Below are positions 39,097 through 40,138 of a stretch of DNA of 64,000 bases, one piece after another. The position numbers and the translations under genes are program-made. Source of the DNA: Boothiomyces macroporosus (taxonomy: Eukaryota > Chytridiomycota > Chytridiomycetes > Rhizophydiales > Terramycetaceae); the NCBI GenBank assembly GCA_027604185.1, contig JADGKB010000079.1, positions 1 to 64,000 of the forward strand, given 5' to 3'. The notes beneath the pieces are model-generated. The model had not been told where the DNA came from. It saw only the letters and a list, made by a program, of their open reading frames with translations, and ran no database searches. The first letter of the stretch is position 1; every line of letters begins with the position of its first letter.

Positions 39097-39172
39097 GAGT
39101 TACTAATCAATCTGATTCTCTCGAGTTACTAATCAATCTGATTCTCTCGAGTTACTAATCAATCTGATTCTC
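39097..39172. repeat. Three tandem copies of a 26-bp unit
   Basis: Units begin GAGTTACTAATCAATCTGAT and end TCTCTC, at 39097-39122, 39123-39148 and 39149-39172 (last copy cut by two bases). They lie in the short space between the converging ends of LRRC9 and RPP1. They are a simple direct repeat, possibly polymorphic in copy number. Confidence 0.9.
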
Positions 39173-39204: not shown

Positions 39205-40138
39205 TCATTTTTTATTCTTTTTATTCGCTTCTTTTGGATTTGCACTCTCTTCCCTACTTCTTTTCTTTTCATTTTTAGGGCTTTCTATCAATATCACTGA
39301 TTTAAAAGTTTTCTGACGTGTAACTACAATCAACAATAAAATACATCCATGCACAACGCAGCTGGCAGGATTAGAATTGATGGCATCCCTTGCAACTTGA
39401 CCATTCATTTTAAGCATAAAGCAGAGGTTAATAACATCGGCAGCTCCTCTGAACTGGAGCAAGTCACTAGCTTCACTGGAAATAATCACGTTTTTCCCTT
39501 TTGTAACTCTCATTAGTGCCATTGCATTTGAAATAATGTTGCGCTTCACAGTGACATCTCCTTTAGGATTGTGATACCTTTAATGGCAGGGGCATAAGTC
39601 AATTCAAAGTGTATCCCCCTGCTAATGGCCATATTAATTGACGGAAGCTTCAAATAGAACGGAAGCCTCTGTGTGCAATCTATTGTGATTATATCTACTT
39701 CCATTTCCTGACACGCTTGATTGAACTGTTTTTCATTGTACGGAACTACACTAATTAAATTATAACTTTGGAATAAAGGGTTTGATTTAATTGAATAATT
39801 GAATGTCAGATTTGTTAATGGGATATGAAGGCGAGTATAAATCTTGAATAAATCATCAGGTGATCTTAGCTTGGTGTTGGTAATTCTATGCTGCGTGATT
39901 AAATTCATGTAGTCGCTCACTGGTATTGAACATGGCTTTTTAGAATACAGCTACCTACGGTAAGACTCGTCTACCTGCGGTTAGTTTTAAAAACCTTGCA
40001 TTAGAAACCAGCTACCTTTTCCTTTGTCAAATTATTCGTCGTCACTGTCAATGCGATCCCATTGTAACCCAATTCGCTCATCAATTTAATCGTTTCAAGT
40101 GGCTTCTTGAAAGTATCATTTGGGACAAGGAGATCCAT
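39205..40138 (-). CDS. RPP1: RNase P/MRP protein subunit RPP1 (RPP30)
   Basis: Model: complement(join(39205..39323, 39345..39557, 39578..39935, 40016..40138)), 270 aa. Family features: an N-terminal TIM-barrel start (MDLLVPNDTFKK, LGYNGIALTVTT), LPFYLKLPSINMAISRGIHFELTYAPAIKD, and ALMRVTKGKNVIISSEA...FRGAADVINLC. It is a subunit of the ribonucleoproteins that mature tRNA and rRNA. The 21-nt intron at 39324-39344 has no stop. The acceptor at 39558 could also be used three bases earlier (17-nt intron). Between exons 1 and 2 lies an 80-nt block made of four intron-like units. The ATG is 18 bp from that of PRP17. Confidence 0.92.
39936..40015 (-). other. Composite intervening sequence: four intron-like units end to end
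   Basis: On the RPP1 strand the exon ...LTKEK is followed by units at 40015-39995 (21 nt), 39994-39975 (20), 39974-39955 (20) and 39954-39936 (19), and then by the exon PCSIPVSDYMN. Every unit begins with GT (GTAGCTGG, GTTTTTAA, GTAGACGA, GTAGCTGT) and ends with AG. Each has a pyrimidine-TAA or TTAC core in the usual branch position (TTCTAATG, ACTAACC, CTTACC, TTCTAAA). Each has the length of a single intron here. Removal of all 80 nt keeps the frame and matches the RPP30 spacing. The first and last units start with the same seven bases. Confidence 0.8.

Follow-up and report, generated by a model that had tools for sequence, protein, structure and literature searches.

The RPP1 gene of Boothiomyces macroporosus, a chytrid of the Rhizophydiales (Terramycetaceae), contains, between its first two exons, an 80-nt block that raises a simple question: is it one intron, an intron followed by a very small exon, or four complete introns with nothing between them? 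The window analysed was the first 64,000 nucleotides of contig JADGKB010000079.1. RPP1, which encodes RNase P subunit p30, lies on the minus strand of this window, and its product showed the RNase_P_p30 domain (PF01876) with an E value of 2.5e-52. In the gene model, exon 1 (40016..40138, 123 nt) ended in phase 0 after the residues KEK, and exon 2 (39578..39935, 358 nt) started with PCSIP. It was followed by a single 20-nt intron (39558..39577), whose join, K|DVTV, was shared by public proteins P0001 and P0003, then by exon 3 (39345..39557), a single in-frame intron of 21 nt (39324..39344, GTATTTTATTGTTGATTGTAG), and exon 4 with the stop codon (39205..39323), all on the minus strand. A perfect tandem repeat of 2.9 copies of the 26-nt unit GAGTTACTAATCAATCTGATTCTCTC was present just downstream of the gene (39097-39172). 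A search of the window against Rfam at gathering scores matched nothing.

The block itself (39936-40015, minus strand) divided exactly into GT...AG units of 21, 20, 20, and 19 nt, and the coordinates, lengths, and sequences of the four exon-less introns in a row described by the sequence-only reading were all exact. In the order of transcription, these were unit 1 (39995..40015, GTAGCTGGTTTCTAATGCAAG), unit 2 (39975..39994, GTTTTTAAAACTAACCGCAG), unit 3 (39955..39974, GTAGACGAGTCTTACCGTAG), and unit 4 (39936..39954, GTAGCTGTATTCTAAAAAG), with intron scores of 7.7, 7.3, 6.4, and 3.4, respectively. Each unit also had the branch-like core that had been attributed to it (CTAAT, CTAAC, CTTAC, and CTAAA), and the distance from the branch A to the unit end was 7 nt for the first three units and 5 nt for unit 4. 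Among ordinary introns of this genome, for which the median score was 8.8, the four units stood at percentiles 35, 28, 16, and 2.9, unit 4 being the weakest. The features of an ordinary ultrashort intron (GT...AG ends, 18-23 nt, a YTNAY-like branch near the end) were clear in units 1-3 and weak in unit 4. In all 15 non-empty combinations of retained units, a stop codon appeared within 12 codons after the join.

The ordinary introns were determined with a simple gene finder, trained on 269 kb comprising the window contig and, from each of contigs C1-C4, the first 50 kb, and run with intron lengths of 15-26 nt allowed. It called 356 introns and, trained on this genome, picked the four-unit parse of RPP1 unprompted. 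The reference sample was the 350 introns flanked on both sides by more than 12 coding bases, which excluded the four of RPP1 and two others. The data showed that 348 of these 350 introns were 18-23 nt long, with a mode of 20 nt and the bulk at 19-22 nt. In a first-pass set of 195 introns the consensus was GTA...YTAAY, and in 148 of them the branch A preceded the intron end by 6-7 nt. In the same set, G at donor position +5 was rare (16%), despite the canonical 5' end of the U1 gene. When lengths up to 200 nt were permitted, 357 of 369 introns were still 16-23 nt long, and the earlier statement that a single intron of 80 nt would fall outside the local size range was thus upheld. The other 12 introns, all longer than 26 nt and unvalidated, included none at RPP1 and none that tiled into short introns; some genuine longer introns may exist in Boothiomyces. 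A U1 gene, beginning with ATACTTACCTG, was found at 68.8 bits, slightly below the family cut-off of 69.5; the U2 gene bears GTAGTA and the U6 gene bears ACAGAGA. The signal sequences of all three RNAs look canonical.

We analyzed how often such a tiling would arise by chance. Real GT...AG stretches 76-84 nt in length numbered 14,373; only 3 of them tiled into four units, and RPP1 alone reached its score. Eight of 300,000 random 80-mers tiled, and none of the 300,000 reached the score of RPP1. When both strands of the 269 kb were scanned for at least three abutting intron-like units (18-24 nt, score of at least 2), RPP1 was the sole match. The parses of the block were compared with the same intron model, in which the long-intron prior was set by hand and which was trained on short introns, so that the comparison is partly circular: four units received 25.1 nats, three introns of 21, 20, and 24 nt followed by a 15-nt exon 13.8 nats, one 80-nt intron 13.6 nats, and a 65-nt intron followed by the 15-nt exon 11.3 nats.

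A search of the genome for further concatenated units of about 20 nt, which the sequence-only reading had proposed as a check, was positive. Patterns were run on the assembly of 15.2 Mb in 216 contigs. The abutting-intron pattern TAAYN3AG|GTW..TNAYN2-3AG gave 118 matches, while its reversal gave 38; with one base inserted between the two introns, the same pattern gave 19 matches and its reversal 21. The N2 sister pattern, for which the reversed pattern was the only control, showed a weaker enrichment (88 matches vs 52). The random 80-mers and the one-base-spacer control led us to reject a chance origin of the tiling. The sensitivity for abutting pairs, estimated from the 350 introns, was about 21% for the first pattern and about 24% for the sister pattern, and division of the excess over control by the sensitivity yielded about 465 and about 150 AG|GT junctions, respectively. 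Scaling up the three junctions found in 269 kb gave about 170. The genome would thus hold, as a rough figure inflated by regions present twice in the assembly, some 150-470 abutting junctions.

Sixty short loci were fetched, and after removal of four duplicates or re-fetches, 56 remained. By gene models, stacks were present in 34 of the 56 loci and absent from 22. The rate was 18 of 20 among loci chosen as chained or promising, 14 of 34 (7/20 and 7/14) among single matches sampled at regular steps, and 2 of 2 among loci from duplicated regions. Two-unit stacks were the most common among the 42 in total (23), followed by three-unit (13), four-unit (3), five-unit (2), and six-unit (1) stacks. 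In this tally the stack of the PP2A gene is entered with three units although homology gives five. Whole stacks spanned 38-133 nt. A plain chain scan gave six units at locus L038 and four plus four at L031; one unit of the five-unit stack at L046 was doubtful (score -1.0). Stacks were also shifted toward the start of genes. They occupied the first-intron position in 11 of 16 cases, against a background of 99 first introns among 346 ordinary ones (Fisher P = 0.0014), and in a second set in 9 of 16 cases, compared with 83 of 348 (P = 0.007). Ten of 16 stacks, but only 52 of 346 ordinary introns, lay within the first 150 coding bases (P = 4e-5); in the second set this difference (5/16 vs 51/348) was not significant (P = 0.08).

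Next to the tiling and the excess of abutting introns stands the evidence of proteins encoded across other stacks. In the gene for the PP2A catalytic subunit, a block of 110 nt with five units (22, 21, 24, 21, and 22 nt) was bridged by the join LCEK|AREIL, across which no gap was needed in the alignment to a solved structure of this subunit (E value 1.2e-140). The gene for glycogen debranching enzyme carried six units, each 21-23 nt long and together 133 nt, and the join, within the G codon of HPECGYNLV, was likewise gap-free against a solved debranching enzyme. Gap-free joins against solved structures were also obtained for USP7 (four units, within the W of NKQWRV), an SPX protein (four units, LEK|VNTFY), and GID8 (two units, EEH|PEF). 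The whole block is therefore absent from the message in these five genes. In OGG1 (two units, FRW|IQTN), compared by eye with four of 120 listed relatives, the length was the same in Terramyces P0019 and Globomyces P0022, while the protein of the more distant Kappamyces (P0106) was a few residues longer right after the join. A further sequence, P0021 (source tag 'lgn'), in which both units are read through in frame (VIATNIGIKILTQ), was discarded as splicing evidence, because the next intron is also read into and P0021 is thus an unspliced sequence. The reading across the join of a five-unit stack in an ING-family gene was identical to the JEL0838 annotation P0139. For a METTL6-like gene with three units, the alignment starts downstream of the join and is silent on the block.

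From these data, the RPP1 block very likely consists of four complete minimal U2-type introns that abut at AG|GT, and is one of the zero-exon stacks of two to six units that occur throughout the genome. The best of the other explanations, though an unlikely one, is that each stack is removed in one step as one long intron, which in RPP1 would measure 80 nt, and that the inner GT, AG, and branch motifs are relics of duplication or of chance. The protein evidence is compatible with one-step removal, since nothing lies between the units and any order of removal, or any pairing of sites that clears the block, yields the same mRNA. The twelve introns above 26 nt in the permissive run, unvalidated as they are, and the occurrence of recent duplicates in two stacks also speak for it. 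Against it are the negligible chance of the tiling and the rarity of introns longer than 23 nt. The units of a stack are moreover mostly unrelated, with a mean identity of 0.593 (109 pairs from 33 stacks) compared with 0.589 for random intron pairs, yet inner units (n = 30) had a median score of 7.45, compared with 8.75 for ordinary introns. The rarity of longer introns and these good inner signals in mostly unrelated units favor unit-wise removal, but the argument from inner signals is weakened because the loci were found by an intron-like pattern and such signals were partly selected for. The RPP1 stack is thus probably excised unit by unit, to judge from the small size of introns in this genome and the intact inner signals.

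A second alternative, which we consider very unlikely, is that part of the RPP1 block is an exon, such that a 65-nt intron (or introns of 21, 20, and 24 nt) is followed by a 15-nt exon encoding LYSKK. The three public Boothiomyces RPP1 proteins, all of them predicted annotations, bear on this point: one retains part of unit 4 and one begins downstream of the stack. P0001, from the closely related strain JEL0838, has LYSKK exactly at the join, where the final 15 nt of unit 4 are kept as exon; the reading frame stays open, and unit 4 is the unit with the low score. The JEL0866 protein P0002, by contrast, joins KEK directly to PC and lacks LYSKK. P0001 also keeps the in-frame intron at 39324-39344 as CILLLIVV, and the JEL0838 annotation is therefore unreliable for short introns. 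The same intron is kept in P0003, a B. macroporosus RPP1 which otherwise equals the reading of the window over that part of the gene, and is spliced in P0002 (HGFTRQ), a protein without one conserved stretch further along. Both parses with the 15-nt exon scored well below four units, and an LYSKK exon would leave the PP2A and debranching enzyme stacks unexplained. The annotations of this gene indicate that zero-exon stacks are mishandled by gene predictors.

The relatedness of the units was used to examine their origin. Six of 109 pairs reached the 99% level of random pairs, where about one was expected, and by the best pairs listed these lay in L025 and L037. Recent tandem duplicates were thus seen in two of 33 stacks, with units 1 and 2 of L025 identical (1.0) and units 3 and 4 of L037 at 0.86; the remaining 31 stacks are older or of other origin. 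Since the sequences are mostly unrelated, most stacked units are not fresh copies. The multiplication by tandem duplication that had been suggested for RPP1 therefore holds for L025 and L037, while pairwise identity showed no sign of recent duplication among the RPP1 units, whose best pair (units 1 and 4) reached 0.71, under the 95th percentile of random pairs (0.725). These two units do share their first seven bases, as had been noticed, but such a pair occurs in 5.9% of draws of four random introns and is not significant. Three pairs of duplicated assembly regions (C49/C100, two places in C10, and two places in C20) were identical over 901 bases and are thus uninformative on differences in unit number.

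The remaining suggestion, that of a mobile structure akin to stwintrons or introners, starts from the presence of several introns at one position and the existence of such systems in fungi, but is most improbable, as no unit is nested within or interrupts the splice signal of another, units of one stack resemble each other no more than random introns do, except in the two stacks above, and the 350-intron sample contained no repeated introner family.

If the RPP1 block is read as four abutting introns, the Boothiomyces spliceosome would define introns of about 18-24 nt, and each unit would accordingly be recognised and excised individually. Every inner AG|GT would serve as the 3' site of one unit and the 5' site of the next, and inner donors would have a fitting upstream context because AG precedes the next GT as it does at exon ends. 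After the removal of any unit its neighbor would keep its own donor, branch, and acceptor, which would leave the order of removal free. As to the origin of stacks, we infer that a local duplication spanning one intron length, about 20 nt, could create a second spliceable intron that is silent in the message, after which the units would diverge in sequence and retain their splice signals. Stacks of unlike units may alternatively have arisen by insertion of unrelated introns at the AG|GT boundary. A broader proposition, for which we regard the case as evenly balanced, is that the spliceosome has a hard limit of about 24 nt and that whole 20-nt introns are gained and lost at AG|GT, with stacks of up to six excised singly. 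Under such a limit introns could grow only in whole units, and the genome would naturally document how introns are born step by step. With units of 20 nt, a single slippage-sized duplication would silently copy an intron, and gain and loss would become countable among strains.

In chlorarachniophyte nucleomorphs and in Stentor, standard introns are within 15-25 nt, and we know of no zero-exon stacks from ciliates or the chlorarachniophyte nucleomorph. Boothiomyces resembles these systems in having ultrashort introns as the standard size and differs from them as a fungus in which the U1, U2, and U6 signals look canonical. Ciliate introns of about 25 bp are described in PMC5014332. Drosophila ratchet points are zero-length exons at which AG|GT acts as a 3' and then a 5' site and no exon remains in the mRNA (PMC8605326, PMC6110457). 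The juxtaposed AG|GT sites of Boothiomyces likewise leave nothing in the mRNA, as the joins supported by homologues show, but recursive splicing in Drosophila subdivides long introns, whereas here the segments are themselves complete introns, each about 20 nt long and equipped with a branch-like site, and the RPP1 block is only 80 nt long, with units that are full-size for this genome. Stwintrons, known from Hypoxylaceae, Lipomyces, and others, are described as several U2 introns at one position removed in consecutive reactions, with an inner intron that splits a splice signal of the outer intron (donor, branch, or acceptor) and must leave first (PMC7138796, PMC9024468). Boothiomyces stacks are similar in that several fungal U2 introns share a single position in a gene, but their two to six units are adjacent, not nested, and every signal is contiguous. 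Dual-specific splice sites, in which AGGT is usable as a 5' or a 3' site, are reported in a passage that includes a tandem array in human UBC (PMC10809524); there the sites bound variably kept coding repeats, whereas nothing coding lies between the Boothiomyces sites. Work on intron gain treats tandem duplication as a source of new introns (PMC4974935, PMC2395259); known introns born in this way are separated by exons, unlike the Boothiomyces duplicate, which abuts its source and is recent in the two stacks named above only.

Among the matches listed from the open-licence literature, the titles, abstract starts, and passages held no description of zero-exon arrays of complete introns, and no listed title concerned Boothiomyces introns. 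By term search, the introner survey PMC9860276 was without Boothiomyces, chytrid, or tandem, and PMC5639578 gave no match for any of six terms. The nearest kinds in these sources are recursive splicing, stwintrons, dual-specific AGGT sites, and gain by tandem duplication, none of which was found there to describe arrays of minimal introns. Exon-free arrays of complete spliceosomal introns at many places, including core genes such as that for PP2A, would amount to a novel gene architecture, and they bear on how introns are gained and on whether directly abutting introns can be removed by the spliceosome at all.

Several loci showed further particulars. L025 (C8:113730-115130) had two three-unit stacks within one gene, one of them containing a pair of identical 19-nt units; the next exon there also begins with GTAATAG. 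The five-unit stack of L046 (C8:113300-114200) lies near it on the opposite strand. At L082 (C44:61500-62100, minus strand), a two-unit stack was followed by more intron-like units in a row, among them the near-identical neighbors GTTTAAATATACTAATACTAG and GTTTAAATATACTAATCAAG.
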